A DNA stretch of 64,000 nucleotides, from positions 1 through 64,000 of the forward strand of contig SUSZ01000005.1 of NCBI GenBank assembly GCA_015063165.1, given 5' to 3'. The stretch is from Thermoplasmata archaeon (lineage in GTDB: Archaea; Thermoplasmatota; Thermoplasmata; Methanomassiliicoccales; Methanomethylophilaceae). Made by a program: the position numbers and the translations under genes. Shown piece by piece: positions 24,367 to 62,042 of the stretch. How positions within the stretch are numbered: the stretch's first letter is position 1; the number at the start of each line of letters is the position of its first letter. Below the pieces are notes generated by a model. It was given only the letters and a program-made list of their open reading frames with translations. It did no database searches and was not told the origin of the DNA.

Positions 24367-24905
24367 GCGAGTATATTGCACGGCAACAACTTAAACGATT
24401 CAGTGTCAACGACCTGAAAGGACTGGATAGAAGAAGACCAGTCCTGACTTTCCCGGCCCCTTTTCGGGTAAGCGCGTTTGTTGCGGTCATCCGTCGAGTC
24501 TTGCGAACGGATCAGGCAGCTTGAACGCCCGAAGGACAAGTGTCGATCGACCATTCTTTCCCATGGGCTTCGTACCGCCCCGGTGATCCGAACTCGCCGC
24601 AGATCCTAGTTACTTGCCGTTTACTGATCTTTCCTTGCCTCCTTGAGTAATGATACGCTATGCTACTATTTATAGAAATCTATCGACGGATTTCGGAAGA
24701 TTATATCCATCTTAATATTATTCTCGTGAGAATACTACGATATTCGTAAAAGAATAACATTATCTATATATTCTCGCGGCGACATTCGGACTTTGTAGGA
24801 AGCGGGTTCTGCTCCGATTATCGTTGTTTTCAGAAGGATTCCTTCAGAGCGGAAGCGAACGAAAGAAGAAGGGGAAGATTCCCGGCCGAAGCCGGGGTTT
24901 TGGGA

Positions 24906-26168
24906 TCAGTACATCTGCTCGGAGCAGAACGGGCAGTACTTGGGGGTCTTGGGAAGTCCCGACAGGTCCTTTCCGCAGTACGGGCAGGTCTTGTAGGTGG
25001 GTGCCTCTCCGGGCGCCGCGGTCGCGGGTCCTCCCTGAGGCTGTGCTCCCGAAGGTGCAGCTCCCCCCTGGGGCTGCGCGCCACCCTGAGGTGCTCCCTG
25101 GGGATATCCGCCCTGAGGAGGGTAGCCACCCTGCGGCGGGTATCCGCCCTGATAGTAGCCCTGCGGGGGATATCCGCCCTGAGGAGGGTAGCCTCCCTGG
25201 TAGTACCCTCCCTGCGGGGGCTGCATTCCGGGTGCGGGCCTGCCGCACATGGAGCAGTACATGTAGGGATACGTGTTGGGCCTGCCGCAGTACGGGCAGA
25301 GCATCTGCTGCTGCTGGGGCTGCTGAGGCTGTTGCTGCTGGCCGCCTCCCTGCTGTCCCTGGAGCTGCTGGAACATCTGGGGGAACAGGAGCATTCCGGT
25401 TCCGACCGCCGCTCCTCCTTCGGAGTTTCCGATCGCGTCTGCCATTCTGTCCATGACTTCATACCTCTTGAACGCCTCTCCGTTTGCGCTGCTGAACTGG
25501 AGATACTCGAAGATCTTCTTCTGGTCCTCCTCGGTGGTCCTCAGGTCGGCGATCTTCAGAGCGAGGAGCTCGATACCCCTCTGGGTGAAGTACTGCTCGA
25601 TCTTGACCTTGGTCTTGGTCGAGGCCTCCTCCAGCTTTCCATAGATGTCCATGTAGTGCTGGGACGTGAGCTGCTGGGTGATCTGCTCGTTTATGAAGCT
25701 CTTCATGAAGGCGTTGACGTCTCCGGTGGTGTACGCCTTGAGCCCTCCGAGGACCTGGGTGAAGAACACGGGGACATCGCTGACGCGGAACTGGTAGTCT
25801 CCGTTCGCCATCAGAGTGATGGGGACCTCGTATCCCTCGGCGGCCTTGACCATTCCGCGGATTCCCCATTTTCCGTTGAACATCTTCAGGGAGACGTAGA
25901 TGACCTGGATCTTGAACGGGGTCTCCTTGTATCCCAGAGCGAGGTTGTAGAGTTTGGTGAGCCAGGGGATGTTCATCGAGGTGATGAGGTGCCTTCCGGG
26001 TTCCAGGACTCCCTGAAGCTGTCCGTCCCTGACGAAGATGGCCACAGCGTGCTCGGGGACGGTGACGGAGGACAGGGTCCTCAGGTCGTCGTGCTCGAAG
26101 CAGTAGACGATGTCGTCGGGCCCCTGGGAGGACCATGTGATGACGTTGGTGTTCGTCGCCATGCTCAC
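24906..26168 (-). CDS. SPFH/Band 7-type protein with C-terminal zinc ribbons and PQGGY-rich linker
   Basis: SPFH-like N-terminal region (VPEHAVAIFVRDGQLQGVLEPGRHLITSMNIPWLTKLYN), two zinc ribbons (CPYCGRPNTYPYMYCSMCGRP; CPYCGKDLSGLPKTPKYCPFCSEQ). Confidence 0.8.
   Translation of the reverse strand: MSMATNTNVITWSSQGPDDIVYCFEHDDLRTLSSVTVPEHAVAIFVRDGQLQGVLEPGRHLITSMNIPWLTKLYNLALGYKETPFKIQVIYVSLKMFNGKWGIRGMVKAAEGYEVPITLMANGDYQFRVSDVPVFFTQVLGGLKAYTTGDVNAFMKSFINEQITQQLTSQHYMDIYGKLEEASTKTKVKIEQYFTQRGIELLALKIADLRTTEEDQKKIFEYLQFSSANGEAFKRYEVMDRMADAIGNSEGGAAVGTGMLLFPQMFQQLQGQQGGGQQQQPQQPQQQQMLCPYCGRPNTYPYMYCSMCGRPAPGMQPPQGGYYQGGYPPQGGYPPQGYYQGGYPPQGGYPPQGGYPQGAPQGGAQPQGGAAPSGAQPQGGPATAAPGEAPTYKTCPYCGKDLSGLPKTPKYCPFCSEQMY
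25040..25240 (-). repeat. Low-complexity tandem PPQGGY-encoding repeats
   Basis: Translated QGGYYQGGYPPQGGYPPQGYYQGGYPPQGGYPPQGGYPQGAPQGGAQPQGG. Confidence 0.8.
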
Positions 26169-26707
26169 TCAGCCCCCTCGGTCTGGAAGCCTTTCATGAT
26201 GGCCTCCCTCTGGTTGTAGTCCTCGAGCATGTCGTCGATACACCTCTCGTACTTGCGGAGGTCCTTCCTCGCGAGGGTGCCCTCGTCGACCATGTCCAGG
26301 ATCTTCTCGGTGGCCTCCCTCATGGCCTGGATGTCGTCGAGGATCTTGGCGTCCCACGACATGACCCTGTCCAGGTCGTCCTCGAGTATCTTGACGGAGT
26401 CGTGGAACGCGGAGTACCCGTTCACGGCTTTCTTGATGTCGATGTCGTACTTGTCCACCTTGGTCCTTATCCTCTCTATATCCATCATCAGGTCGAAGTC
26501 GTCGATCAGGCCCCTCTGTATCTCGGCCAGGTCGGCTTTCGCTCCCTGTATGGTGCGGGACAGCTCCTGCCTCACGGCCCTGTCAGCGTCCCTGCGCAGG
26601 TTCTTCTCTTTATATCCCTTGTATCCGGGGATATACATCTTGATCTTCTCGAAGAGCCCCATGTCGCTCTTCATCTTCGATTTCACAGTTGTATCCAATT
26701 CCGACAT
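26165..26707 (-). CDS. Coiled-coil protein of unknown function, SPFH operon
   Basis: Helical, charged protein; stop overlaps the start of the SPFH gene. Confidence 0.75.
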   Translation of the reverse strand: MSELDTTVKSKMKSDMGLFEKIKMYIPGYKGYKEKNLRRDADRAVRQELSRTIQGAKADLAEIQRGLIDDFDLMMDIERIRTKVDKYDIDIKKAVNGYSAFHDSVKILEDDLDRVMSWDAKILDDIQAMREATEKILDMVDEGTLARKDLRKYERCIDDMLEDYNQREAIMKGFQTEGAE

Positions 26708-26711
26708 GTTA

Positions 26712-27074
26712 TCACGCATTCCTGTTCTTTACCGCCATCACTATTCCGGTGATCGCTATTATCGCTATGAAGACAGCCACGGTGATGAGGACGTTGCCGG
26801 TGTAGCTCTGGACGAGCCCGGCTATTCCGATTCCCGCGAGTATTATACCTCCGACCATCGTCGAGTCGCCGTACGAGGCCCCAAAGTTCTTGTTCTCCTT
26901 TCCAGCCCCCCTGATCACGGAGGATATCGCTAGGAACAGGCCGAACACTATCAGTATAGCCCATACGACGTCGAGCACTTGGCCCGTGGTCAGGAAGATT
27001 ATTATTCCGAGCACTATCGACAGCAGGAATGCTCCTGCGGTGATGGCGCCCCAAGTATTGCCGTTCATGGCCAT
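26712..27074 (-). CDS. Small multi-pass membrane protein
   Basis: Four hydrophobic stretches (AITAGAFLLSIVLGIIIFLTT, VVWAILIVFGLFLAISSVI, VGGIILAGIGIAGLV, VLITVAVFIAIIAITGIVMAV); overlaps the next gene. Confidence 0.75.
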   Translation of the reverse strand: MAMNGNTWGAITAGAFLLSIVLGIIIFLTTGQVLDVVWAILIVFGLFLAISSVIRGAGKENKNFGASYGDSTMVGGIILAGIGIAGLVQSYTGNVLITVAVFIAIIAITGIVMAVKNRNA

Positions 27075-27086
27075 TCTATCACTCTC

Positions 27087-28628
27087 TCAGATTATGACTA
27101 TTCCTTTGGCCCCAAGCGCGCTGACGACCTTAGGGGTGAGGTTCCCGAACGCTTTGGGAAGCGATATCGAGTCCCCGTTGAGGTTGCACGGTATGTAGAC
27201 CAGCTTCTTGACTAACGGTTTGCTAAGCTTCAGTTTGGAGTGGGATGACGAGCACTGTTTGAGGTACTCTTCGACCAGCTTCGTGGCCTCTGTCTTCGTG
27301 CTGAGCGGGATCACAATCTTTCTAGTCCCTGGGGAATTGTTGGCGGCGGAATCGGCGAGGGTTCCGATCCCCGCTCCTCCGCTGATGCTGTTCTCCTGTC
27401 CTTTGATCTTGGTCAGTATGGATGCTTCCGGGGCGGCGGCGAAGATGTCCGTGAGCCCCGTGCGGGGGTTGGAAAGCGCGGTCTCGGAAACCGTGAACGT
27501 CGCGGGGATGAGGAGGTCCTCCGTCACCTCGACGCTCTTCTTCGAGAACAGGGCGCCAGTGGTGAAGCTGTACTTCAGGTCGACGTCCCAGAACGGATAG
27601 AGGAGGTTCCCGTCCCCTGCGCATACGGGCAGGGTGCCGGAGCTCCTGGCGTCCATTATGCTCTCTATCCAGGAGAACATCTCGACGTCCCTCTCCTTCT
27701 TGTCCAGAAGGTAGTCCCATTTGGGGTTCTTCGGATACTTGAGGCTGCTGACGTCGTTCAGGATGTTCAGCAGCTGCAGGGGGTCTGAAGACGTCTGCTG
27801 CGCCATCTCGGCGATGTGCAGGAGGGTCTTGGACTGGGAGATCTCGACGTCCACGGCGCGTATCATGACCGCCATGGTGGGGCTCTTGAAGAGCTCCTTC
27901 TTCGCTTCCTCGAGGGCTTTCACCCCTCTCTCGGCCTTGACTATGCAGTCCACGGCGTTGCCGTTCAGGACGTAGTCGGATGCGAAGCACACCTCGACGA
28001 GGGCGTTCAGCCTCTTGACGAAGGGCTCGTACCCTTGGCATTTGGACATGTTGTTGGCCGCTTCGGTGAAGTTGTTGGCCATGAGGGCGAACCTTCCCGG
28101 AGTGGTGTCCGTGAGGAGCTTGGAGTTGTTGGCTATGAGCGCGTAAGCCGCGGAGATGCTCTCCGCCTCGGCGATCTTGGGCTTGTTCTCCTGGTCCATC
28201 GCCAGGGCCTCGATGCTCTTCAGCTTGGCGTTGAACTCGAAAGCCTGCTTGGAGCTGCGTTTCGCCCTCAGGGGATCCCCTTTGTTGAAGGGCAGCACTA
28301 TGAGCGGCGAGCTGATGAGCGAGTTCATGTCCAGGCGGAACTCCCTGATCTCGGGCTCCACCATCGGCTTCACGTTCGTCATGTAGATGTTGTACCTGGC
28401 GATGGGGTCCACGTTGTCCATCGAGGCCCCGGCGTAACCCATAGGCATGGCCTTGCTCATCCAGGACTTTATCTCGCCCATCATCTGATCCATGTAAGCC
28501 TTGGCGTCTATGCGCTGCTGGCTGGTTCCGCAGTACTGGCAGGTGACGAACTTCGCGTCAGACTGGACATCCTTGGCGTCCAGCGGGGCTCCGCAGTTCT
28601 TGCACCTGAGCTCGACCATATCGTCCAT
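27087..28628 (-). CDS. Zinc-ribbon protein of unknown function (513 aa)
   Basis: N-terminal ribbon LRCKNCGAPLDAKDVQSDAKFVTCQYCGTSQ; operonic position. Confidence 0.8.
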   Translation of the reverse strand: MDDMVELRCKNCGAPLDAKDVQSDAKFVTCQYCGTSQQRIDAKAYMDQMMGEIKSWMSKAMPMGYAGASMDNVDPIARYNIYMTNVKPMVEPEIREFRLDMNSLISSPLIVLPFNKGDPLRAKRSSKQAFEFNAKLKSIEALAMDQENKPKIAEAESISAAYALIANNSKLLTDTTPGRFALMANNFTEAANNMSKCQGYEPFVKRLNALVEVCFASDYVLNGNAVDCIVKAERGVKALEEAKKELFKSPTMAVMIRAVDVEISQSKTLLHIAEMAQQTSSDPLQLLNILNDVSSLKYPKNPKWDYLLDKKERDVEMFSWIESIMDARSSGTLPVCAGDGNLLYPFWDVDLKYSFTTGALFSKKSVEVTEDLLIPATFTVSETALSNPRTGLTDIFAAAPEASILTKIKGQENSISGGAGIGTLADSAANNSPGTRKIVIPLSTKTEATKLVEEYLKQCSSSHSKLKLSKPLVKKLVYIPCNLNGDSISLPKAFGNLTPKVVSALGAKGIVII

Positions 28629-28629
28629 A

Positions 28630-29574
28630 TCAGTTCGACCTCATCATCCTGAGCGTGCTGATCTCTCTCTGGAGAGCAGCGATCTCGGCCTGGAGCCTGG
28701 CCTCGGTGGCGCGCAGCTCGGCCATAGCCTTCTGGTGGTATCCCAGGGCTATCTCGTTCGCACGGTTGGACACTCCGGAGTAGCAGGCGCGGCAGATGTA
28801 GATGTGCTTGTTGTCCGGGGCCCTGTTCTTGTTGGTGCCCTCGTCCTCGCTCTCCAAAGCGAGAGCAGGGGAGATGTCCGCGGGGGCGGAATAGAAGTGG
28901 ATTCCCTCTCCGGACGCGATCCTGTTGCAAATCCAGCATCTGCAGGTGTTTCCGTACGCCCTGACCCTGGCCTCGTTCGCGCTTCCGCTCTGGCCGTTCT
29001 GCTGGCGGTAGCCCATCGCGATCTGCTCGTACTCGGCCGCCTGCGAAGGGCTCTCCCACACGACCGAATCGGACAGCGCCTCGTACGACACCGCCATCAG
29101 GTTGAAGAACTCGGTGGTTCCGGTCACGGTGGTGTCGTTGTTGAAAATCTCCTGGATGACCAGGTGCTCGTTTCCGATCTTCTCCTGGAAGTCCTGGGCA
29201 AGGGTCTGCAGGTTGGAAGAGACCGCTTCGAGGTCCTTCTTCTGGGCCCTCTGGTTGAGGAGCCCAACCTTCCTGTAGGTGAGCTCGGCTTCTGTAAGGA
29301 GCGGATCGCGCATGATGTGGGTCAGACCGAAATCCAGCTCGTCCGCCTTCAGCGCTTTCAGCTTGTTCACCAGGTTAGCGTATACCTGGGGATCGTCCAG
29401 CCTCCCCATCATGTCTATGAGCGCGACCTGTACCGCAGCTATGTCGTCCTCTCCTCCTTCCTTGTCTATCGACTTCTGGAGCACGTTGCGTGCTTTGGAG
29501 AACTCTCCACGTTTTATGAGCTCGTTGCCTTGCTCGTATAGGTCGTCTCCGTTCTTGAACAGCTTGAAAGCCAT
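28630..29574 (-). CDS. Helical-repeat protein with a CxxC...CxxC zinc finger and C-terminal coiled coil
   Basis: TPR-like N-terminus, RCWICNRI...YICRACY, C-terminal heptad region ATEARLQAEIAALQREISTL. Confidence 0.75.
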   Translation of the reverse strand: MAFKLFKNGDDLYEQGNELIKRGEFSKARNVLQKSIDKEGGEDDIAAVQVALIDMMGRLDDPQVYANLVNKLKALKADELDFGLTHIMRDPLLTEAELTYRKVGLLNQRAQKKDLEAVSSNLQTLAQDFQEKIGNEHLVIQEIFNNDTTVTGTTEFFNLMAVSYEALSDSVVWESPSQAAEYEQIAMGYRQQNGQSGSANEARVRAYGNTCRCWICNRIASGEGIHFYSAPADISPALALESEDEGTNKNRAPDNKHIYICRACYSGVSNRANEIALGYHQKAMAELRATEARLQAEIAALQREISTLRMMRSN

Positions 29575-29795
29575 TACTCTTCACCCGGCCGTATATATCG
29601 TCGTGCAATAAAAAAACAATCTCTCTTACAGTTATAATATGACAAGGGGATTTCCCCTGTTTTTCATCATCAGTGTCTTAAAGTATCCTTGATTCGCAGA
29701 TATTCATTTTCTATTTTTGAAATAAGTAGACAAATGTCTAATCAACGAACTAACAACCAATTATTTCATCTTCTAACACGAAAGATTTATAATGA

Positions 29796-29811
29796 TGCAT
29801 AGTACAATGCA
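29796..29811. promoter_or_regulatory. Candidate operator between the TATA box and start of the type III glutamine synthetase
   Basis: TGCAT-AGTACA-ATGCA palindrome directly downstream of TTTATAA and 5 bp before the ATG at 29817. Confidence 0.5.
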
Positions 29812-29816
29812 CCATC

Positions 29817-32000
29817 ATGGTAAACAGCAGGTTCAGAGCGGTCGAGGAGGCATTCGCCAAAGAAGCTGTCGTAGCGGAGCCCCCTGCCCCGGCAACCTCG
29901 GACTATTACGGATGCAACGTCTTCAACAGGAAGAACATGAGGAAGTACCTCTCCTCCGAGATCAGGCAGAAGGTGTACGAGTCCATAGAAAAGGGCGTCA
30001 CCCTGGAGAGGGACGTGGCCGAGCAGGTCGCGGTCGGCATGAAGCGCTGGGCCCAGGACATGGGGGCCACGCATTACACCCACTGGTTCCAGCCTCTCAC
30101 CGGAGGCACCGCCGAGAAGCACGACTCCTTCGCCGACCCTTACGGGAAGGGCGAGTCTATAGAGGTCTTCTCCGGGAAGATCCTTTGCCAGCAGGAGTCC
30201 GACGCGTCCTCTTTCCCGAACGGAGGGCTGAGGAACACCTTCGAGGCCAGAGGGTACACCGCCTGGGACCCGTCGTCGCCTGCTTTCGTCATGGGGGACC
30301 GCCTGTGCATCCCCACCGTATTCATCTCATACACCAGGGAGGCTCTCGACTACAAGACCCCTCTTCTGAAGTCGGAGGTCGCTATAGCGGACGCTGTGAC
30401 GGACGTCCTGAAGTATTTCGGCATAGAGAACGACCGCGTGTTCTCCTATCTCGGATGGGAGCAGGAGTACTTCCTCGTGGATTCGTCCCTGTACGCGGAG
30501 CGCCCGGACCTGATAATGGCCGAGAGGACGCTCATAGGTCACAGCTCGGCCAGGAACCAGCAGCTTGAGGACCACTACTTCGGGTCGATCCCCGCCAGGG
30601 TCCTGGAGTTCATGAAGGACCTGGAGTTCGAGTGCTATAAGCTCGGGATCCCGGTCAAGACCAGGCACAACGAGGTCGCTCCGAACCAGTTCGAGATCGC
30701 TCCGGTCTACGAGCAGGCGAACATAGCGATAGATCACAACCTCCTGCTGATGTCCCTGATGAGGACCGTCGCCGACAAGCACGGGTTCAGGGTCCTTCTG
30801 CACGAGAAGCCCTTCGCCGGAGTGAACGGTTCTGGGAAGCACTGCAACTGGTCTATCGGGACGGAGTCCGGCATAGGGTTGCTGTCCCCCGGCAAGACCG
30901 ACCTGGAGAACCTCAGGTTCCTGACGTTCATGGCGAACGTGCTGAAGGCGGTCTACGACAACAACGCGCTGCTCAAGGCCAGCATCCTCACGGCTTCCAA
31001 CGCCCACAGGCTGGGAGCGAACGAGGCCCCTCCCGCGATCATCTCGTCCTTCCTCGGGACCCAGGTCACGGAGGCGTTCAACGAGCTCCTGAGCTCCAGG
31101 GACATGGTCAAGCTCAAGGGGAAGGTCGGATACAGCCTCGGAATCCCCCAGATCCCGGGGCTGTTCATGGACAACACCGACAGGAACAGGACCTCTCCGT
31201 TCGCGTTCACCGGGAACAGGTTCGAGCTCAGGGCAGTGGGCTCGTCCGCGAACTGCTCCAGCGCGGTATGCGTGCTGAACACCATCACCGCCTACCAGCT
31301 CAAGAGGTACAAGGAGAACGTCGACAGGAGGGTCGCCAACGGCACCCCCGTGATGAAGGCCCTCCTGGACGAGACCCGCGAGACCTACAGGGCATGCCAG
31401 AAGATCTGCTTCGACGGGAACGGGTACTCCGAGGAGTGGAAGGCCGAGGCGGCGAAGCGCGGCCTGGACTGCGAGACCAGCCCCCCGCTCGCCTACGACG
31501 TGCTCGCTTCGCCCCGCACCATCGAGGTCTACAAGGACACCGGCGTCATGACCGAGGTCGAGCTCAAGGCCAGGAGCGAGATAGACTGGGAGATCTACAG
31601 CAAGAAGATCGAGATCGAGGCCAGGGTCCTCGCCGACCTGACCGCGAACCACATCCTCCCTGTAGCCACCAGGTACCAGTCGGTGCTGCTGGACAACGTA
31701 TCCAAGATGAAGGAGATCTTCGACGGGGAGGAGTACAGCGTTGTAGCGGCGGGAGAGATCCAGATCATCAAGGACATCGCGATGCACATCAGCAAGGCCA
31801 GGAACCTCGCCGACGGCATGGAGGCCGATGTGGACGAGATCTGCGAGATCGAGGAGGAGCGCGCCAAGGCCATAGCCTTCCACGACAGGGTGGTCCCCTA
31901 CATGGAGAAGGTAAGGGTCCACGTGGACGCCCTCGAGATGATAGTGGACGACCAGATGTGGCCCCTGCCCAAGTACAGGGAGCTCCTGTTCATCCGCTGA
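29817..32000 (+). CDS. glnN: Glutamine synthetase type III (GlnN)
   Basis: 727 aa with the GSIII N-terminal region (FNRKNMRKYLSSE...THWFQPLTGGTAEKHDSF), EKPFAGVNGSGKHCNWS, and the GSIII-type C-terminal extension. Confidence 0.95.
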   Translation: MVNSRFRAVEEAFAKEAVVAEPPAPATSDYYGCNVFNRKNMRKYLSSEIRQKVYESIEKGVTLERDVAEQVAVGMKRWAQDMGATHYTHWFQPLTGGTAEKHDSFADPYGKGESIEVFSGKILCQQESDASSFPNGGLRNTFEARGYTAWDPSSPAFVMGDRLCIPTVFISYTREALDYKTPLLKSEVAIADAVTDVLKYFGIENDRVFSYLGWEQEYFLVDSSLYAERPDLIMAERTLIGHSSARNQQLEDHYFGSIPARVLEFMKDLEFECYKLGIPVKTRHNEVAPNQFEIAPVYEQANIAIDHNLLLMSLMRTVADKHGFRVLLHEKPFAGVNGSGKHCNWSIGTESGIGLLSPGKTDLENLRFLTFMANVLKAVYDNNALLKASILTASNAHRLGANEAPPAIISSFLGTQVTEAFNELLSSRDMVKLKGKVGYSLGIPQIPGLFMDNTDRNRTSPFAFTGNRFELRAVGSSANCSSAVCVLNTITAYQLKRYKENVDRRVANGTPVMKALLDETRETYRACQKICFDGNGYSEEWKAEAAKRGLDCETSPPLAYDVLASPRTIEVYKDTGVMTEVELKARSEIDWEIYSKKIEIEARVLADLTANHILPVATRYQSVLLDNVSKMKEIFDGEEYSVVAAGEIQIIKDIAMHISKARNLADGMEADVDEICEIEEERAKAIAFHDRVVPYMEKVRVHVDALEMIVDDQMWPLPKYRELLFIR

Positions 32001-32098: not shown

Positions 32099-34006
32099 TC
32101 ATACGAACTTGCAGTACAGCGTCGTGTCCTTGGTCACGTTGTCGAGCTCGATCTCGGTCCAGAACAGGCTGGTCCTCTCCAGGCTCAGCTTGCCGTCGTC
32201 GTAAGGCGCGTAGTAGTAGGTTCCGTTCTTGGAGTAGGACACTCCGAGGGTCCTCATCATGTCCCTTCCGAAGTGGGTAACGTAGTGCTTGAAGCTGTCC
32301 CCGTTGTCCACCGTGTACTCCTCCTTGTATCCGTCGCTGTCCACGATGGTCACGGTGTACTGCTTCTCCTTCGTGACGGTCCAGTGGGCGTACAGCGTGA
32401 GGTCGCCCTTGATCGTCGTGTTGAAGTTGAACTCGCTTCCTCCGGTCTTCTTCGTGAACCATCCGTCGAACTTGTATCCGTACCTGGACGGGTCGGAGGG
32501 CTTGGAGACCTTGGAGCCGGACTCCACGGTCTCGGTGTGGCTGGGGTATCCCCCGTTGGCGTCGAAGGTGACGGTGTAGCTCTTGTAGACGTCGGAGTAC
32601 CAGTGGGCGTACAGCGTGAAGCTCGCGGTCACAGGGGTGGTGAAGTCGAACTTCTCCCCGCCGGATGCCATTGTGTACCATCCGAGGAACCTGTACCCGG
32701 CCCTTGTGGGGTCTGCCGGCGCGACGGCGCAGTCTCCGGACTTGACGACCTCGGAGGTGTTGGGCGTTCCTCTGTTGGCATCGAAGGTGACCCTGTAGCT
32801 TTGGGTCTGGATGGCCCATTGGGCGTACAGCGTGACGTTGGAGGTCACGGGGCTGTCGAAGACGAACCTGCTTCCGCCCTCGGCGGCGGTGTACCATCCG
32901 ATGAACTTGTATCCGGATCTGGTGGGGGACGTGGGCACGGGCGCGTACTCGCCGGGGTTGACGGTAGCGGTCGTGCTTGGAGACCCTCCGTTGGCGTTGT
33001 AGGTGATCGTGCATATCTTGCTGGGGCTGCTGGAGGCCCAGTGGGCGTACAGGGTCAGATCGCCGGTGACCGCGCTGTTGAAGTTGTACTCGTCGCCGCC
33101 GGCCGCCGCGGTGTACCATCCCTGGAACTTGTATCCGGACCTGGTGGGCTCGGCAGGGACGGTCGCCTTCTCTCCGCTCTTGACGGTCTGGGTGCTGTCG
33201 GGGACTCCTCCGTTGGCGACGAACATCACGGTGTAGGTCTGTTCGGAAGGAACGGCCGTCCAGCGGGCGTACAGGGTGATGTCGGAGGTGATCGTGTTGT
33301 TGAAGCTGAACTCGGTTCCTCCGGTGGCAGCGGTGTACCATCCGTCGAATGTGTAGCCGGGCCTGACGGGGGTCGTCGGCACGGACACATGCTCGCCGGA
33401 GCTGACCTTGTATGTGGTGCTGGGGGACCCTCCGTTGGCGTTGAACGTCACGGTGCAGGTCTTGACATCGGAGTTCTTTATCCAGTGGGCGTACAGGGTG
33501 AATCCCGAGGTCACAGGCGTAGAGAAGCTGTACTGCTCCCCTCCGGCTGCCGCGGTGTACCATCCGAGGAACTTGTATCCTGTCTTCGTGGGATCCCCGG
33601 GGGGAGTGAGGAGGCTGCCCGAGCTCACCATCTGGTAGAAGTTGTTGGATCCTCCGTTGGTGTTGAAATCCACCCTGTAGCTGATGGACGAGTCGGGGGA
33701 CCAATGGGCGTACAGCGTCCTGTTGCTGGTTATCCCCGTATTGAAGTCGAACTTCTCTCCTCCGGTCGCCGCGGTGTACCATCCGAGGAACTTGTATCCG
33801 TTCTTCGTGGTCGTGGGCTCGGCGAGCTTCGCGCCCTTCTTGACGGTCTGGCTGGGTACGTAGGAGCCGTTATCGGTGTCGAACGACACAGTAAACGTCT
33901 CGTCACTCCCGTTGTCGTTGGACCCGCCTGCGAGCAGGAGAGCCGCGGCGATGACGACGATCACGGCAGCGATGGCGATGATCGCCGCGATGTAGGTGTT
34001 TTTCAT
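32099..34006 (-). CDS. Membrane-anchored protein with seven InlB/Listeria-Bacteroides repeats
   Basis: N-terminal TM segment then seven ~72-aa units of the form (Y)xVTFxANGGxPS..V..G..V..P..P.R.GY.F.GWYTAA.GG..F.F...VT...TLYAHW. Confidence 0.9.
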   Translation of the reverse strand: MKNTYIAAIIAIAAVIVVIAAALLLAGGSNDNGSDETFTVSFDTDNGSYVPSQTVKKGAKLAEPTTTKNGYKFLGWYTAATGGEKFDFNTGITSNRTLYAHWSPDSSISYRVDFNTNGGSNNFYQMVSSGSLLTPPGDPTKTGYKFLGWYTAAAGGEQYSFSTPVTSGFTLYAHWIKNSDVKTCTVTFNANGGSPSTTYKVSSGEHVSVPTTPVRPGYTFDGWYTAATGGTEFSFNNTITSDITLYARWTAVPSEQTYTVMFVANGGVPDSTQTVKSGEKATVPAEPTRSGYKFQGWYTAAAGGDEYNFNSAVTGDLTLYAHWASSSPSKICTITYNANGGSPSTTATVNPGEYAPVPTSPTRSGYKFIGWYTAAEGGSRFVFDSPVTSNVTLYAQWAIQTQSYRVTFDANRGTPNTSEVVKSGDCAVAPADPTRAGYRFLGWYTMASGGEKFDFTTPVTASFTLYAHWYSDVYKSYTVTFDANGGYPSHTETVESGSKVSKPSDPSRYGYKFDGWFTKKTGGSEFNFNTTIKGDLTLYAHWTVTKEKQYTVTIVDSDGYKEEYTVDNGDSFKHYVTHFGRDMMRTLGVSYSKNGTYYYAPYDDGKLSLERTSLFWTEIELDNVTKDTTLYCKFV

Positions 34007-34195
34007 GATAATCACTTCTTGAAGAGACCTGGAACGTACGGTCTCGGGCCTGTTCTCTTGGGCGAGCAGGCCTCTACGCGTGCGGTATCTTGGTTGCGGT
34101 TTTAACCATTGTCGGAATTAAGAACGGTTTTCCGACAGGGAAAGGGTCGGCCCGGGAGTACGTTCCCGAGCCGTTTTAGAGTTTGGGGATATGCT

Positions 34196-53237: not shown

Positions 53238-54620
53238 ATGAAGCGGCTCAATCAGATCGTCTGGTACCTGGGGTATTTGATATCGATCATTCCGGTGTGC
53301 ATGATAGTCATCTACAGCTTCGGCGCCGATATCCTGGTGTACATCCCTCTTGTGATAGGCATCGTAGGGACCCTGGTCCTGGTGGCTGTCGGCAACGGAG
53401 GCGACCTGAACATGGCCCCTCCGCCTGTCACGGACTATCCTGTGCCGTTCATCGGTCTGAGCAAGATCGGCGGGAGCCAGGTGTACTATCTGGCCAAGAA
53501 CGGGTTCATGATGTTCGTGGTGCCATTCGGCGCTGTCAGCGCTCCGATCCTCGCGGTCCTCATAGCGCTCATCACCATTCCGATCGGGCTGGTCATGTTC
53601 ATAATGGCCGCCTGCCTGATACCATATCTCGCCGTCGTGGACGCGCTGTACCTTGCGACGCTGTTCCTTGCCAAGGTTATCGACAGGCACCAGTACAGCG
53701 TCAACACCTCCAGGTTCGTCTGTCCGGAGTGCGGGAAGAAGTCCTACCGTCCTGTGTACGATGTCGAGGGCAGGATGATCCAAGGCTTATGCCCCACAAA
53801 CAAGGGGATATTCAGCCAGGAGATGGAGGTCCGCAGCGTCCCGTGCTTCGGATCCAAGGGCGGAAGGAAGAAGCTCAATCAGTACTGTCCCGACTGCAAG
53901 GCCACCGTGGAGACCGAGGAAGGAAGGTCGTTCGTCGTGAGCATGGCAGGAGCCAAGTCCTCCGGCAAGACCAGCTTCTCTTTCTCCGTCCTGGGCGAGT
54001 TCATGTCCACCAACGGGAACCACAAGGCCTCCAGCGAGAATTTCTACTTCTCCAGGGACGACGGCCTGCTCGACGACTACCGCAGAGGCATCTGCAATCC
54101 TACTCCGCTGAGCTACAACACGCCCCACATCCTGACATTCGAGGCCGGCCGTTTCGTCACCAAGAGGCACATCTTCATGTGCGACGTGAGCGGAGGCTTC
54201 TTCTCCAGCGACTACAGCACCGACATCCAGCCTCAGTACGAGTACAACGACGCGATAGTGTTCACCCTGGACCCTACATGCTACAACGCCCAGGACGTCG
54301 CGTACGCGGCCTATGTGGGATTCATGGAGAAGTACCGCCTCTACAACAAGATGGACGCCTCCAAGAAGATCACCGTCCCTATCGCCGTGGTAGCAACCCG
54401 CGCAGACAAGCCGGGATCCTTCGGGAACCTGGTCGGAGCCGAGCTCAGGGAGAAGATGGTCGAGGAGGGCTACTTCCCTCTGATAAACATGATCGAGAAG
54501 GACTTCCTGGCGGTGACGTTCTATTCCTGCGACGTGTCCAAGGAGGGAACGGCCTCGGAGATAATGAAGCATCTCAGTGATGCCACGGCCTACAAGATCG
54601 GGCCTCTCTTCAAAGAATGA
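53238..54620 (+). CDS. Membrane-associated P-loop GTPase-like protein with zinc ribbon (GTPase/Hsp70 module)
   Basis: N-terminal TMs, CPECGKKSYRP ... YCPDCKATVE ribbon, Walker A GAKSSGKTSF, ICDVSGGFF (switch-like), VATRADKPG (NKxD-like). Confidence 0.75.
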   Translation: MKRLNQIVWYLGYLISIIPVCMIVIYSFGADILVYIPLVIGIVGTLVLVAVGNGGDLNMAPPPVTDYPVPFIGLSKIGGSQVYYLAKNGFMMFVVPFGAVSAPILAVLIALITIPIGLVMFIMAACLIPYLAVVDALYLATLFLAKVIDRHQYSVNTSRFVCPECGKKSYRPVYDVEGRMIQGLCPTNKGIFSQEMEVRSVPCFGSKGGRKKLNQYCPDCKATVETEEGRSFVVSMAGAKSSGKTSFSFSVLGEFMSTNGNHKASSENFYFSRDDGLLDDYRRGICNPTPLSYNTPHILTFEAGRFVTKRHIFMCDVSGGFFSSDYSTDIQPQYEYNDAIVFTLDPTCYNAQDVAYAAYVGFMEKYRLYNKMDASKKITVPIAVVATRADKPGSFGNLVGAELREKMVEEGYFPLINMIEKDFLAVTFYSCDVSKEGTASEIMKHLSDATAYKIGPLFKE

Positions 54621-54624
54621 ATGG

Positions 54625-54653
54625 GGCCGGAGGGGGCAGATTCCCCCTCGGCC
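54625..54653. terminator. Convergent terminator hairpin
   Basis: GGCCGGAGGGGG-CAGATT-CCCCCTCGGCC between convergent genes. Confidence 0.5.
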
Positions 54654-54661
54654 AGAAGTTT

Positions 54662-56242
54662 TCATCCGACCAGATATCTTCTGGCGTTGCGGATCTGGTC
54701 GTCGTTCAGCAGACCCTTGGCGGAGAGCGTGTGGCTCTTCGTGATGTCCCTGAACGTGCAGGTGCATATGATGTCGGCCTTGTCGTTGGCCTCGATGGAG
54801 ACCTGGACGGGCTCCCCTGCGCGGCTGTCCGAGGGGATGTCCACGATGAAGGACCCGACCTCCTCGCACTCCTCCTCGGCGACCTCGAGGTTCTCGTCGC
54901 TCTCCTCGAACTCGCTCTGGAAGATCACCACTCCGAGGGCGGTCTGTCCGTCCTTGTGGACGTAGTACTCCCCCTTGTTGGCGATCGGCAGGGTGCGGTT
55001 CTTGAAGATGATGTTGGAGATGAGGTACTTTTGCTGGCTCTCGTCCCAGACTTTGACCCCCATGGTGTGGGAGAGGACCTTCTCGATCTCGATGTCCCCG
55101 ATCTTGGGGGCGAACTTGGACAGCTTCGCGTCGGCCTCTCCGACAGGCTGGCCGTCGGTTCCGGTCTCGACGACGACGTCGCGGGTGTTCTGATAGATGG
55201 CGGCTCCGGTGGCGATGGCCAGATCGGGGTCGTGGAGAAGGATCTTGGACTCGCAGGAAGGGTACGTGGCGATGAGCCCGGCCTTGACCTGGGGCATGCG
55301 GGAGGACCCTCCGACCATGACGAAGTCGTCGATGTCGTCGATGGTGAGCTTGGCGCTCTCGAGGGCGCTGTCGATCTTCATCATGGTGGCCTGGAGCTCA
55401 CCGGCGGTGGCCGCTTCGAACTCCTCGCGGGTGACCGTGTATCTGACGGTGGAGGTTCCGATGCGGATTCCTCCCTTGACCTCCTTCAGGGTGCTCAGGG
55501 AGATCTTCTGGCCCTCCGCCTTGGACTTGATGTCGGCGATGACGTCCTTGTCGGCCTCGAGCTCCTCCATGGTGATGTTGGCCTGCTCGCATATCTTGTC
55601 CTTGATGATCTGGATGAGGGCCGCGTCCCAGTCCTTTCCTCCCAGGTTGCAGTCTCCGTCCGTGGAGAGCACTTTGAACCTGTTGTTGTCGATGCTCATG
55701 ATGGTGACGTCGAAGGTTCCTCCTCCGAGGTCGTAGACAAGGATGTTCTTCTTTCCGGTGCTCTTGAGGCCGTAGGAGATCGCTGCCGCGGTGGGTTCCT
55801 CGATGATGTTGACCTCCTCGAACCCGGCGATGAGTCCAGCCTGGCGGGTGGCCTCCCTCTCTTTTGGTCCGAAGTAGGCGGGACAGGTGATGGTGGCGCT
55901 TTTCAGCTCCGCGTCGGGGTATTTCTCGATGAAGTCGTCGACCAGCTTGCGGACGATCCTGGCGGACAGCTCGATAGGCCCGTATTCCACTCCGCCGATG
56001 TTTATGCGCCAGGTGTCTGCCTCGCTCATGTTCCTCTTGACCGCTTCCACGGTGATCTCCGCGAAAGGGGCCTGGTCCTTGGCGGTCTCTCCGACGCAGA
56101 ACTCTCCGTTGTCGTAGGTGATGACCGATGGAGTGGTGTCATGCTCCTGGTTGTTCTTCACCACGATCGGAGTGCCGGTCGCGTTCATGATCGAAAGGCA
56201 GGAATACGTAGTTCCCAGATCGATGCCTATGTCGTATATCAT
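54662..56242 (-). CDS. Hsp70 family protein lacking an obvious C-terminal lid
   Basis: MIYDIGIDLGTTYSCLSIMNATGTPIVV, ILVYDLGGGTFDVTIMSID, MVGGSSRMPQV; ends after SBD-beta-like region. Distinct from dnaK at 41276. Confidence 0.92.
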   Translation of the reverse strand: MIYDIGIDLGTTYSCLSIMNATGTPIVVKNNQEHDTTPSVITYDNGEFCVGETAKDQAPFAEITVEAVKRNMSEADTWRINIGGVEYGPIELSARIVRKLVDDFIEKYPDAELKSATITCPAYFGPKEREATRQAGLIAGFEEVNIIEEPTAAAISYGLKSTGKKNILVYDLGGGTFDVTIMSIDNNRFKVLSTDGDCNLGGKDWDAALIQIIKDKICEQANITMEELEADKDVIADIKSKAEGQKISLSTLKEVKGGIRIGTSTVRYTVTREEFEAATAGELQATMMKIDSALESAKLTIDDIDDFVMVGGSSRMPQVKAGLIATYPSCESKILLHDPDLAIATGAAIYQNTRDVVVETGTDGQPVGEADAKLSKFAPKIGDIEIEKVLSHTMGVKVWDESQQKYLISNIIFKNRTLPIANKGEYYVHKDGQTALGVVIFQSEFEESDENLEVAEEECEEVGSFIVDIPSDSRAGEPVQVSIEANDKADIICTCTFRDITKSHTLSAKGLLNDDQIRNARRYLVG

Positions 56243-56427
56243 GTCGAATCCCCTGGTTCATTTGAGTAAAACGACCCGATTCCGCATGATTTACTTATCA
56301 TAAAGCGGTTTCGGAACGCTATCATGTTCGTAATGTGGGCATGTCCTGCCACCTGTCTGTTGCTCTTGTCCTATGGTGTTTTTCCTTGACAACATTAGTA
56401 AAATAATCGGAAAATGATAAGGGGTGC

Positions 56428-57636
56428 ATGGCCTTCATCTGTCCGTACTGTTTCGAGTCGATAGGAAGGATAGACGACGTGCATTACATGTGCACGGACG
56501 TCGGGCATAACAGCAGGTCAATCCTCGAGGAAGATCCCGAATACGCGAGCTACCGCGGTCTCGAGACGTACACTCGCACCACCCATGTCGTCAGGGATTA
56601 CAACAGGAGGGACCCCAGATGCGACGTGTGCGGTTCCCGTCTCTCGAGGATGCTGTGCCCGGTGTGCCACAACACGCTCCCGTACGGGATAGACAAGTGG
56701 GACCTGAACTTCTTCGCGATATTAGGGCCTCGTGCCGTCGGAAAATCGCATTACATAGGCGTGCTGATCAAGGTGCTTGAACGTATGAGCAAGGAGTTCC
56801 AGTGGTCGATCAGCCCTATAGACTCCAAGGTCAACGACCTGTACAACAAGAAGTACGCCAATTCGTTGTTCAACAAGAAGAAGGGCATAGACCCTACCCG
56901 CCGTGTGACGCTGGACATCTACGAGCCCCTGGCGTACACGATCAAGGCCTACAACGGGAAGGTGGCGGGCCTGTTCTTCGTGGACACGGCAGGAGAGGAC
57001 GTCTCCGCCGACGATTACGCCTACACGATCCAGAAGTACATCGCGAACTCGTCCGGAATCATATTCCTGGTGGATCCGCTGCAGTTCGACTACGTCAAGG
57101 ACAGGATAGGGGCCAGGGACAGCAACAGGGCGAACTACACCCATACTCTTTCGGTCATAAGCCAGGTCTACCGCGCTGGGAAGGGGATGAGCATCAACAA
57201 GAAGATCGGAATCCCCCTGGCAGTCGTGGTCACCAAGTGCGACGTCCTCATCAAGGAGCCCACCAACGAGATGGAGGAGGAGGTCTTCCTCGGGTCGGAC
57301 TCAGCGATCAACAACCCCCGCAAGTACGGCGTGTTCGACGAGGAGAACAGCCAGCAGATAAGCGCGGAGATAGAGGCCTTCCTGGACCGCGTGAGCGAGG
57401 GGCAGTTCCCCCAGGCCGTCAAGAACGATTTCAAGGATTACAGGTACTTCGCCGTGTCCGCTTTGGGATCCGAGCCGGACGCCAGCGGGAGCATCAGCGG
57501 AGTGTCCCCGATAAGGGTCGAGGACCCGATGCTCTGGCTGATGGAGAGGGAGACCGCGGTTATCAAGGCTCAGAACACCCAGGAGTCGGTAAAGAAATCC
57601 TTCGGCGGATTCTTCAGGAGGCGTTTCGGTGTCTGA
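56428..57636 (+). CDS. Zinc-ribbon TRAFAC-like GTPase (DO-GTPase-like)
   Basis: N-terminal ribbons (CPYCFESIG; CDVCGSRLSRMLCPVCHNTLP), Walker A LGPRAVGKSHYIG, GLFFVDTAGED (DxAG), VVTKCDVL (TKxD). Confidence 0.8.
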   Translation: MAFICPYCFESIGRIDDVHYMCTDVGHNSRSILEEDPEYASYRGLETYTRTTHVVRDYNRRDPRCDVCGSRLSRMLCPVCHNTLPYGIDKWDLNFFAILGPRAVGKSHYIGVLIKVLERMSKEFQWSISPIDSKVNDLYNKKYANSLFNKKKGIDPTRRVTLDIYEPLAYTIKAYNGKVAGLFFVDTAGEDVSADDYAYTIQKYIANSSGIIFLVDPLQFDYVKDRIGARDSNRANYTHTLSVISQVYRAGKGMSINKKIGIPLAVVVTKCDVLIKEPTNEMEEEVFLGSDSAINNPRKYGVFDEENSQQISAEIEAFLDRVSEGQFPQAVKNDFKDYRYFAVSALGSEPDASGSISGVSPIRVEDPMLWLMERETAVIKAQNTQESVKKSFGGFFRRRFGV

Positions 57637-60010
57637 GCAGCTCGTCTACACCCTCTGCAGGAGCGGGGTCGGGGTGGTGGCCGGATACGGGGTGTATTCC
57701 GCCTCCGCAGGCATGGCGACCTCGGACAGGACAGAGATAGAGTCCAGGTACAGCACATACATCGCCCCCGAATCCATACCGGTCTCCGGAGGCGACGACC
57801 CAAACATCGCGAAGATGCCCCGCAGCCTCGGGTTCTCCAAGCTCGCTTCGGGTCACGAATGCATCACCCACCAGCTGTACACCGGAGCCGACTACGACAA
57901 TCCTTCCAGGATGGGCAACTACATCTCGCATTCGATAGTCGACCCTTGCTTCGGCTTCTATCCTATCGAGGCCCAGGGATTCGACGGATTCTGCCTGGAC
58001 ATGCGCTACGACGAGATGGACTGCGATGTGGCTCCTCCGGTCTAGCCGGCTGTGGAGGTCGCCTGTCCTCCAATTATGGGCCGCGTCAAGGCGTTCGTAG
58101 GAAGCCACGACAAGATCTTCCTCCGCGAGCTGGCCTACAGGATTCTCGATTCAATGGACGACAAGCTGAAGAAGGTGTTCGTCGCGGAGAAGTACGACAA
58201 CGCCGACTGGATGGCCGCAGCGACACTCCTGTTCCCGCTGGAGATGTCCAAGCAGGTGTCGTTCGTGACGTACACCGGAAGCCCGGACAGATGCTTCCAG
58301 AAGCTCGCAGGGCTGTTCGATACTGACGACCTCACGCCGACGGTCTCGCTGTTCGCCATATCCGTCAGGGATCCCAAGGAGTCCGCCAGGGACGAGCTGT
58401 TCGACTCCTATGTGGACAACGCCTATTCCGAAGGCTCCGACAGACAGGCGTTCTTCGACTTCCTGTCAAGGGTCGGATGGAAGGATATCGGGAAAGGGGT
58501 CATCGACGCGTACCACATGTTCGCTGTATGCGAGAAAGGTGTCGTCCCTCCGGAATCGGCCCGTCTGAGATGTCTGGACGCTCTGAAGCAGACTATGGTC
58601 TCCGCAAAGGACGATGACATCGCATCGGTGTATAATGTCGTCAAAGACCGCATGGACCCCGCCATGGCCGACTTTTTCGGCAGCGTGGCCGTGCCCAGGA
58701 TGAAGGACAGGACGACCGCCGAAAGGATACTGGCGGAGGTGACGGCATACACGCTGGAACCGTCACGCAGCCTCGGCGTGGGATCCGAGGTCGTCGAGAA
58801 TTACAGCAGATACAAGGATCCCGTTCTGAGATGCGTGGACCTGGGCGCCTTGGACCTCATCGACTATCCGGCAGCTAGGTATTACTGTTACAAGGCGTGG
58901 TCCGAGTCCAAGGATTCCAAGATGGCGGACATCATCTCGGGATACGGCCCTCTGGATGACCTGTTCATAGACGCTTCCTGCAGCGACGGCAGATCCTGCA
59001 TAGAGGCTCTGGACAAGCTATGCCCGCTATCGGATGCCGCCAAGGGAAGCATCAAGGACGGCATAGTGTCGCGTGCCGGAAGCCTTCCCAGCGCTCTTCT
59101 GAACGACGTGTACGGATTCGGATTGACCGAAGACAAGGAACTGGCCGATCGTCTTTCCGAGGCGGTCTCGCAGAGGGACGACCGCCAGGCGATGGAGAGG
59201 TCGTTCGTGGACGTCGCGATAGAGAAGGGCGACAACACCGCCGCCACATCGCTGGCCAAGAAGATCGCGGACTCGTGCATGGAGAGCAACGGGGACATAG
59301 CCTCGACCATACGCTTCATAGGCCAGAGGGCCTCCTCTCTCGATTGGAAGTGCTCGGCCAGCCTGATCACCGCTCTTTCCAAATCCATCGATTTCACCGG
59401 GTTCGGCCCGCTGCCCGCTGTCAGGGAAGCTCTGGCCGCTTTCCCCGACATGGAGGGAATGGTCACCTCCGAAGAGGCTTCCCGCATACGCCTTCTCGAC
59501 ATGGCTGACAGGGTGACCAAGGATAGCACCATGGTCGACCCTATGGACGTATCGTCTTTGAGTGCCGAAGACAGGGAAGCGTTCGTGAAGCTCTGCATGG
59601 GAAAGACGATTCCAAGGAAGGGAGGGGACAAGTGGGTCTCCGACCGCTTGAAGCTGTTCTCCGGATGTCCGGAAGAGGCCGCCAGACGTATGGGGACTAT
59701 AGTCTCCCAATCGGTGCTGGACAAGCTGGACGCCGAGATGGTCGCCGCGTTCATCGTCTCCGCGAAAGAGAACGGGGCGTCGGACGAATCCGTCTACGCC
59801 AATCTCAAGCTGGACGGCAAGCAGGCTTCCAAGGTGAGGAAGCTCTTGAAGGACGACATCTTGGAAGCGTTCAACAGCCACTTCAAGGAGGGGGACGCTG
59901 GCTCCCACAAGGGCCTGTTCTCCAAGCCGTCGGAGGAATCGGAAAAGAAAGATGACAAGCCCGAGAGCAAGCCCAAGAAAGGAGGGCTTCTTGGGCTCTT
60001 CAGGAGGTGA
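57629..60010 (+). CDS. GAP1-like GTPase-associated protein, one reading frame interrupted by an in-frame amber TAG at 58043-58045
   Basis: ORFs 57629-58045 and 58052-60010 are in the same frame, separated only by TAG. The first part resembles a GAP1 N-terminal domain (QLVYTLCRSGVGVVAGYGVYSAS..GADYDNPSRMGNYISHSIV), the second its middle region (WMAAATLLFPLEMSKQVSFVTYTGSPDR). GTG start overlaps the upstream TGA. Confidence 0.75.
58043..58045 (+). other. In-frame UAG (candidate pyrrolysine codon or nonsense/stop codon)
   Basis: ...GAT GTG GCT CCT CCG GTC TAG CCG GCT GTG GAG GTC GCC TGT CCT CCA ATT ATG GGC... Confidence 0.55.
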
Positions 60011-60014
60011 CGCC

Positions 60015-62042
60015 ATGAAGGTAGGGATAGACCTGGGTACGACATATTCGGCCGTCGCATACGTCAACAAGGACGGCCAGCCCGAGATAATCGAGAACGA
60101 GTTCGACGAGGAGACCACCCCCTCCATTGTGGCGTTCTGCGACGGCGATATCGTGGTGGGACGCGAGGCCAGGGAGCTCCAGGCCGCCGGGCTCAGCTCC
60201 GTCGTCTCCTCCTTCAAGAGGAACATGGGGGACCCCGAGTACTTCTACGAGTACGACGGCAAGAAGTACAGCGCCACCGACCTCTCCGCGATACTCCTCA
60301 AGCATATGAAGGAGGTGGCGGAGCAGCGCATGGGACAGACGGTCGATTCCGCGGTCATCACCGTTCCCGCCTACTTCAACGATCTCCAGAAGATAGCGAC
60401 CATGGAAGCCGGACGCGCCGCCGGGCTGAACGTGGAGATGCTGGTGCACGAGCCTACCGCCGCATCCGTGTGCTACGGGATGAAGAACTCCAAGAACAGT
60501 ACCATGATGACATACGACCTGGGCGGAGGGACCTTCGACATCACCATCCTCCGCATCACGGACGGATCCATAGAGGTCGTAGGAACCCTAGGCGACCCCA
60601 ACCTGGGAGGAAAGGACTGGGACGAGGTCGTCAAGGAGATCCTGGCCGACCAGTTCATGGACGAGTTCTCGATAGACCTTCACAACGACGACGAGTTCGT
60701 CACGAAGTTCTCCGTCGAGGCAGAGAAGATCAAGAAGATGCTGTCGTTCAACTCCCCCATCCGCGTTCCGCTCAGGTTCTCCGGGAAGAGCATGGTCGCC
60801 GTCGTGACCAGGGAGGACTTCGAGTTCAGGTCCTCCGGTCTGGTGGATTCCACCGTCCAGATGTGCGAGCAGCTCCTGAGCGACCTGTCGATGACCTGGA
60901 GCGACCTCTCCGACGTGATCCTGGTGGGCGGTTCCACCCGCCTTCCTGCTATCAGAGAAGCCCTGAAAGCCTCCGGAGTCAACCTGATAATCAACGAGGA
61001 CACCGACACCGCCGTGGCCAAGGGAGCGGCTCTGCTGGCGACCTCGGACGAGGGACGCATATCCAAGAGGAAGCCCGGGGAGGTGGACACCCGCATCATG
61101 AAGGTCAGCGACGCGATAGCGCACAGCCTGGGCGCCCTCGCCGAGGATTCCTCCGGGACCCGTTACATCAACGACGTCATCATCCCCCGCTCGTCCAAGA
61201 TCCCGGCGGTCGAGAAGCGCCCGTTCGAGATCAGGAAGGGGAACTTCACCGAGAAGATAGACATCTACACGCTTCAGGGGGAGAGCAAGCATCCCCTGGA
61301 ATGCACCGTCTTGAAGATGGTCACCGCCGAAGGGATAGAGAACGACGGCAGAGGGGTCAAGATCGAGATCGAGTACTCCTACGACAGGAGCGGCATGGTC
61401 AACGTCCAGGCCTTCCAGGACGGAAAGCCGCTGACCATGGTCAAGGGGGAGGTCCCCGAGGACGTCTCGTGGATGGGGAAGCCGATAGAGAGGCAGAAGA
61501 TGGAGTCAGTCCCGGTGTATGTCATCCTGTCCATGGACCTCTCCGGCAGCATGTGCGGCAAGCCTATCAAGAACGCCACCAAGGCCGCCCACGACTTCGT
61601 GAGCATGCTCCCCAACGCGAGGTTCGCGGTCATAGGCTACGCCAACAAGACCAAGGTCCTCTGCACCGACAAGAGCGCCAAGGAGGTCGGACGCTACATC
61701 GACGCCCTCCAGGACACCGAGGTCGGAGGAGGGAACACCGCCCATCCGTTCGACGAGATCCTCCGCATAAGCCCTCGCGGAAAGTTCAAGGTGTTCGAGA
61801 TAACGCTCACCGACGGGATGTGGAGCTGCTGTCCCGCCGCCATTGAATCGGCCAGCAAATGCATGGATGTCGGCATCGGATGCATCGCGGTGGGATTCGG
61901 GTCCGCCGACTACAAGTTCCTGAAGAAGATCTCCTCCATGGACGAAGGCGCCCTCATGAGCAGCGTGGACGGACTGTCGGCGACGTTCTCGACCATCGCA
62001 TCCACGATCAGCACCGGCGGATTCAACAGGTTCATCAGGTGA
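60015..62042 (+). CDS. Hsp70 fused to C-terminal von Willebrand factor A domain
   Basis: MKVGIDLGTTYSAVAYVNKDG, MTYDLGGGTFDITIL, ILVGGSTRLPAI, then VPVYVILSMDLSGSMCGKPI...ALQDTEVGGGNTAHPF...LTDGMW (MIDAS DxSGS/T/D). Confidence 0.92.
   Translation: MKVGIDLGTTYSAVAYVNKDGQPEIIENEFDEETTPSIVAFCDGDIVVGREARELQAAGLSSVVSSFKRNMGDPEYFYEYDGKKYSATDLSAILLKHMKEVAEQRMGQTVDSAVITVPAYFNDLQKIATMEAGRAAGLNVEMLVHEPTAASVCYGMKNSKNSTMMTYDLGGGTFDITILRITDGSIEVVGTLGDPNLGGKDWDEVVKEILADQFMDEFSIDLHNDDEFVTKFSVEAEKIKKMLSFNSPIRVPLRFSGKSMVAVVTREDFEFRSSGLVDSTVQMCEQLLSDLSMTWSDLSDVILVGGSTRLPAIREALKASGVNLIINEDTDTAVAKGAALLATSDEGRISKRKPGEVDTRIMKVSDAIAHSLGALAEDSSGTRYINDVIIPRSSKIPAVEKRPFEIRKGNFTEKIDIYTLQGESKHPLECTVLKMVTAEGIENDGRGVKIEIEYSYDRSGMVNVQAFQDGKPLTMVKGEVPEDVSWMGKPIERQKMESVPVYVILSMDLSGSMCGKPIKNATKAAHDFVSMLPNARFAVIGYANKTKVLCTDKSAKEVGRYIDALQDTEVGGGNTAHPFDEILRISPRGKFKVFEITLTDGMWSCCPAAIESASKCMDVGIGCIAVGFGSADYKFLKKISSMDEGALMSSVDGLSATFSTIASTISTGGFNRFIR

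Follow-up and report, generated by a model that had tools for sequence, protein, structure and literature searches.

Which function might be served by an operon that joins an SPFH protein to a presumed membrane protein, a helical protein and two further putative zinc-binding proteins in a gut methanogen? This question is raised by a locus in the window, the whole stretch of 64,000 nucleotides analysed here, which originates from a rumen Methanomethylophilaceae archaeon.

Layout, flanks and conservation of the operon

Five minus-strand ORFs lie head to tail at 29574-24906, confirming the location given by an earlier note on this DNA, and form a single transcription unit running from 29574 to 24906 on this strand. 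We refer to them as E, D, C, B and A in this order. The genes are spaced by +1 nt (E/D) and +12 nt (D/C) and overlap by 8 nt (C/B) and 4 nt (B/A); thus, the earlier description as an overlapping same-strand operon of five genes stands for the operon itself, and the overlap is restricted to 2/4 junctions.

29817-32000, plus strand: glutamine synthetase III (GSIII), divergent neighbour upstream of E
29575-29816: intergenic region between E and the divergent GSIII gene (from the sequence)
29574-28630, minus strand: gene E, ORF of 314 aa
28628-27087, minus strand: gene D, ORF of 513 aa
27074-26712, minus strand: gene C, ORF of 120 aa
26719-26165, minus strand: gene B, ORF of 184 aa
26168-24906, minus strand: gene A, ORF of 420 aa
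25111-25209, minus strand: low-complexity PQGGY repeat encoding the linker of A (tandem repeat finder and orthologue comparison)
24881-24896, minus strand: terminator-like hairpin CCCGGC-UUCG-GCCGGG (folding, z -2.5)

Ahead of E, the intergenic region contains a GGGTGA Shine-Dalgarno-like site and a TATA-like element, and possibly provides a promoter region common to GSIII and the operon. On the 3' side of A, the 6-bp UUCG-capped hairpin is followed by a pyrimidine-rich run, and the downstream neighbour is a phosphoribosyltransferase gene. Both this gene and GSIII are conserved neighbours of the operon, with GSIII in its divergent position in most Methanomethylophilaceae loci. No regulator or stress-linked gene was found within the operon.

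The earlier note had proposed synteny as a check, and the genes are indeed co-conserved: the order E-D-C-B-A is kept across Methanomethylophilaceae, in relatives down to 31-45% identity, and the B-A pair is retained far beyond. Order and homology together exceed chance by far, and the nearest homologous loci belong to rumen MAGs of the same family. The conserved order and the GSIII neighbour place the operon in a stable chromosomal region rather than on a mobile island. In addition, some genomes contain a divergent paralogous set, E'-D'-A'-F (L052-L055), in which F looks like a fusion of C and B: it joins four TM segments to a helical tail. The closest relative (G026) carries both this set and the main operon; where B and C are absent, the paralogous set pairs the SPFH protein with the fused 4-TM and helical protein. 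Another genome (G005) contains two copies of the operon (L045, L051), one of them without C. In genomes of the genus that have no D, the Band_7_1 SPFH protein is still present, and in a genome without E-D-C-B-A (L220) the SPFH gene adjoins a gene for a C-like 4-TM protein. Among 293 genomes of the phylum, B occurs in 99 and PspA_IM30 exceeds the cut-off in 3; D-type proteins are present in far fewer of these genomes than B, the many weak D matches being to zinc ribbons only.

Two further loci of the window were noted. On the minus strand, 32099-34015 encodes a 638-aa tandem-repeat protein with GWYTAATGGEKF-type motifs, which we take to be of InlB B-repeat style; it is probably a surface protein. 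On the plus strand, the products of 53238-62042 include one with a DO-GTPase2 match (3.1e-6, just over the cut-off), one of GAP1-M type (2.9e-10) and an HSP70-VWA protein. The earlier note had regarded this GTPase module and the operon as sharing one zinc-ribbon style. Such a likeness does not unite them in one system: by sequence, the GTPase genes match a separate type of predicted conflict system, DO-GTPase/GAP1, here in an archaeon. Systems of this type are described mainly from bacteria (PMC7159879).

The five proteins

Judged by its sequence, A is a soluble SPFH protein of the YdjI/Band_7_1 type with zinc ribbons, which agrees with the SPFH-like, zinc-ribbon protein predicted earlier. Its Pfam Band_7_1 match (residues 29-221) reaches 6.7e-25 and 88.4 bits (cut-off 24), and two zinc ribbons follow at ~291-308 and ~395-415, separated by a PQGGY-rich linker. 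The protein has four CxxC motifs, weak zinc-ribbon matches under the cut-off (DZR/Zn_Ribbon_1) and no TM segment, combining a C-terminal zinc ribbon with the absence of a membrane span as in YdjI. It is the only Band_7_1 protein of the source genome, and a phmmer search among solved structures gave no significant relative. A was rejected as a flotillin, which would have a membrane hairpin or TM segment along with a long flotillin domain of heptad repeats, given that it lacks a TM segment and that Pfam reports just Band_7_1/Band_7 and zinc ribbons. The linker, previously called prion-like, is present, with 3-8 PQGG-type repeats in close relatives (L033-L035) and 0-2 in most orthologues. Because it varies between species and is conserved in the closest relatives only, it was dropped as a functional core.

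Four segments of C are hydrophobic (at 10, 36, 70 and 95), which bears out the four-TM protein noted before; C is presumed to be a membrane anchor, and its position between D and B is conserved. The two further zinc-binding proteins of the earlier note are recognizable as D and E. In D, the CxxC pairs C9/C12/C30/C33 are invariant in 22 homologues, as is a PxW motif; in E, C213/C216/C261/C264 (CWxC/CxxC) are invariant in 21 homologues and mark a putative zinc site. The N-terminal region of E is TPR-like, its profile positions 9-43 aligning with consensus TPR proteins. The AF2 model of D (mean pLDDT 84) predicts a TFIIB-like N-terminal zinc ribbon, a helical solenoid (~39-330) and a C-terminal beta domain opened by a PFW motif (345-347). 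The ribbon resembles that of archaeal 'G' zinc-ribbon proteins (hhalign probability 96% over 34 columns). With the PFW proteins of other archaea (see below), D aligns in the zinc ribbon and an 11-column PFW motif, and the hhalign probability falls to 12% without the zinc ribbon. We therefore rejected D as a full homologue of PFW proteins, the likeness being secure for the zinc ribbon only.

B belongs to a widespread family without known function, defined here by an alignment of 37 members with the motif PGYxGYKEKxLRRxxD. The family has no Pfam model, and no Pfam family matches B above chance level. Among the families listed for the 37 members (best 25 of 61), each was found in at most 6 members and PspA_IM30 was absent, and B was rejected as PspA by sequence. 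All members (37/37) match the NCBIfam family LIMLP_15305 (NF047596, from Leptospira) over nearly their full length, with a best value of 7.2e-18. The B of the window scores 28.6 bits (1.2e-6) against a cut-off of 210 bits and is thus a distant relative of this family, for which, to our knowledge, no function is known. The AF2 model (mean pLDDT 87) has short N-terminal helices followed by a four-helix bundle. Accordingly, B keeps the helical character of the coiled-coil protein described earlier, but a single long coiled coil gives way to a predicted four-helix bundle. The 50 listed Foldseek matches are non-significant, with IncA first, and include no PspA, Vipp1 or CHMP, so that a PspA/ESCRT-III fold, with its long helical hairpin, was rejected as well. 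Solved structures gave no significant relative, the matches with E<0.05 being designed or generic coiled-coil proteins. The N-terminus was not accepted as strongly amphipathic either: the hydrophobic moment of residues 19-30 is just moderate, and lipid contact by B is therefore proposed conditionally below.

The B-A pair in other archaea and Chloroflexota

When 84,980 genomes were scanned with the B alignment, relatives were detected in Thermoplasmatota, Bathyarchaeota, Caldarchaeum, Calditenuaceae, Nezhaarchaeota, Thermofilum, Thaumarchaeota-type MAGs and Chloroflexota. An SPFH gene directly adjoins B in 84/92 loci and lies one gene (~1.2 kb) away in 4 more. Since the loci were chosen by B alone, the adjoining SPFH gene is an independent result. 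The pairing is found in 40/41 B loci with D (the exception being cut by a contig end) and in 48/51 loci without D, four of which have one gene in between; it extends to loci of Bathyarchaeota, Calditenuaceae, Thermofilum and Chloroflexota. The pairwise distances measured for A track those for B, with r = 0.94 over 84 loci (0/2000 permutations as high), a value which partly reflects shared species history, and 0.88 within the distant set. Altogether, B-A is a two-gene core kept together over distant archaea and some bacteria. We found no description of this pair in those parts of the literature that our search covered.

In other archaea, the pair is accompanied by a 4-TM protein of ~110-126 aa, together with at least one zinc-ribbon PFW protein; several of the PFW proteins have C-terminal TM segments. 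In Methanomethylophilaceae, as well as in one distant family (L207), their place is taken by D and E; a D-E pair without B was seen at three loci (L208, L212, L213). In Chloroflexota, for example at L104 (5486-7946), B-A is preceded by a DUF2207 membrane protein with a Gly/Ser-rich tail and by a small zinc-ribbon protein, which hold the places of the 4-TM and PFW proteins. A plasmid collection yielded SPFH matches only, with less than 60% identity, and no match to the PFW protein.

Proposed function and comparison with known systems

We infer the function of the operon from its architecture and neighbourhood. By analogy, we see an even chance that it encodes a sub-membrane SPFH scaffold working like the PspA-YdjGHI stress complex of B. 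subtilis, with a helical partner of its own. In such a complex, A would oligomerise into a ring or cage at the cytoplasmic face, and C would hold this scaffold in the membrane. The N-terminal helices of B may contact lipid or C, with the bundle capping or linking A, and the zinc ribbons of A, D and E could act as protein-protein adaptors that recruit clients or sense damage. The complex as a whole would stabilise or organise the membrane under stress. Thus, the membrane scaffold suggested earlier remains the best reading, with A being no flotillin and the likeness to PspA an analogy only. More tentatively, and somewhat short of an even chance, B and A might be an ancient unit of two components that remodels or scaffolds the membrane, and in which the PGYxGY bundle takes the role of PspA and the adaptors (PFW or D/E) are swapped by lineage.

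One other explanation could be membrane protein quality control, in which the SPFH protein forms a cage or scaffold that holds membrane-protein clients or a protease, in the way HflK/C serves FtsH, and in which B, D and E are adaptors for the clients. This role is common among SPFH proteins (PMC2636767), and the TPR-like E and the solenoid of D resemble peptide-binding adaptors. However, neither a protease gene nor one of NfeD type was observed in the conserved neighbourhood, and HflK/C has a TM segment that is missing from the Band_7_1 type, which makes quality control rather unlikely in our view. A second proposal is an ESCRT-like device for membrane remodelling or sorting, with B forming polymers on the membrane and D acting as a Bro1-like adaptor. 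Foldseek gives HD-PTP Bro1 domains the highest probability among the matches of the D model (up to 0.97) and lists BROX and ALIX as well; in addition, some archaeal ESCRT loci include SPFH genes (PMC10936438). However, the Bro1 matches are not significant (E ~0.7, TM <=0.35), and D was rejected as a Bro1 domain. B, moreover, is modelled as a compact bundle with neither an ESCRT-III nor a PspA match among its 50 listed Foldseek matches. An ESCRT-III/Vps4 context was likewise rejected: none of the ten genomes examined contains Snf7, and Vps4_C matches occur just in AAA proteins of ~740 aa, in 2/10 genomes. Altogether, we consider an ESCRT-like device improbable.

It is highly improbable that the operon serves signalling in the cytoplasm or a process linked to transcription, acting via the TFIIB-like zinc ribbons and with no more than a loose tie to the membrane. 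The N-terminal ribbon of D does resemble those of transcription factors, but the near-constant SPFH partner, the conserved 4-TM protein and the C-terminal TM segments in relatives of the D ribbon argue against this.

For the preferred reading, a scaffold comparable to PspA-YdjGHI, the closest point of reference is B. subtilis. According to PMC8581546 and PMC11237479, YdjI is a soluble SPFH/zinc-ribbon protein, which needs the membrane proteins YdjG and YdjH to reach the membrane and is itself required for the localisation of PspA. In Ravi et al. (PMC11237479), YdjG is a zinc-ribbon/NTF2-like/TM protein and YdjH a TPM protein; a primer listed in PMC8581546 gives the start of YdjG as MIISYKCPNC. 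As in pspA-ydjGHI, one operon here combines a Band_7_1 SPFH protein that has a C-terminal zinc ribbon and no TM segment with a membrane protein partner, a helical partner and a protein with an N-terminal zinc ribbon (YdjG there, D here). The two differ in that the helical partner is B and not PspA, that the soluble D and E stand in for YdjG, and that C is a 120-aa 4-TM protein, whereas YdjH has a TPM domain, which was not found at the operon. The source genome has no match to PspA_IM30 or Snf7. With the same kinds of parts present and B failing the sequence and fold comparisons with PspA, the operon probably works like pspA-ydjGHI and is not a Psp system.

If B and A do form the ancient unit suggested above, it would be a hitherto undescribed, PspA-independent SPFH membrane-maintenance system common to archaea and Chloroflexota. 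Several 'hypothetical protein' annotations would be joined into one system, which bears on how archaea without PspA or ESCRT-III maintain their membranes. Kept from Bathyarchaeota to Chloroflexota and with one partner outside Pfam, B-A is a small, testable candidate. Archaeal Meth_adaptin ESCRT loci likewise place an SPFH/zinc-ribbon protein in a membrane-linked cluster (PMC10936438), but the operon described here is without Vps4 or ESCRT-III. Compared with COG4260/YdjI-type SPFH proteins (Band_7_1), A is a member by its Pfam score, shares the C-terminal zinc ribbons and differs by the long, variable Pro/Gln/Gly linker between its two ribbons. These comparisons suggest that the design of an SPFH protein with a helical partner is broader than its PspA version.
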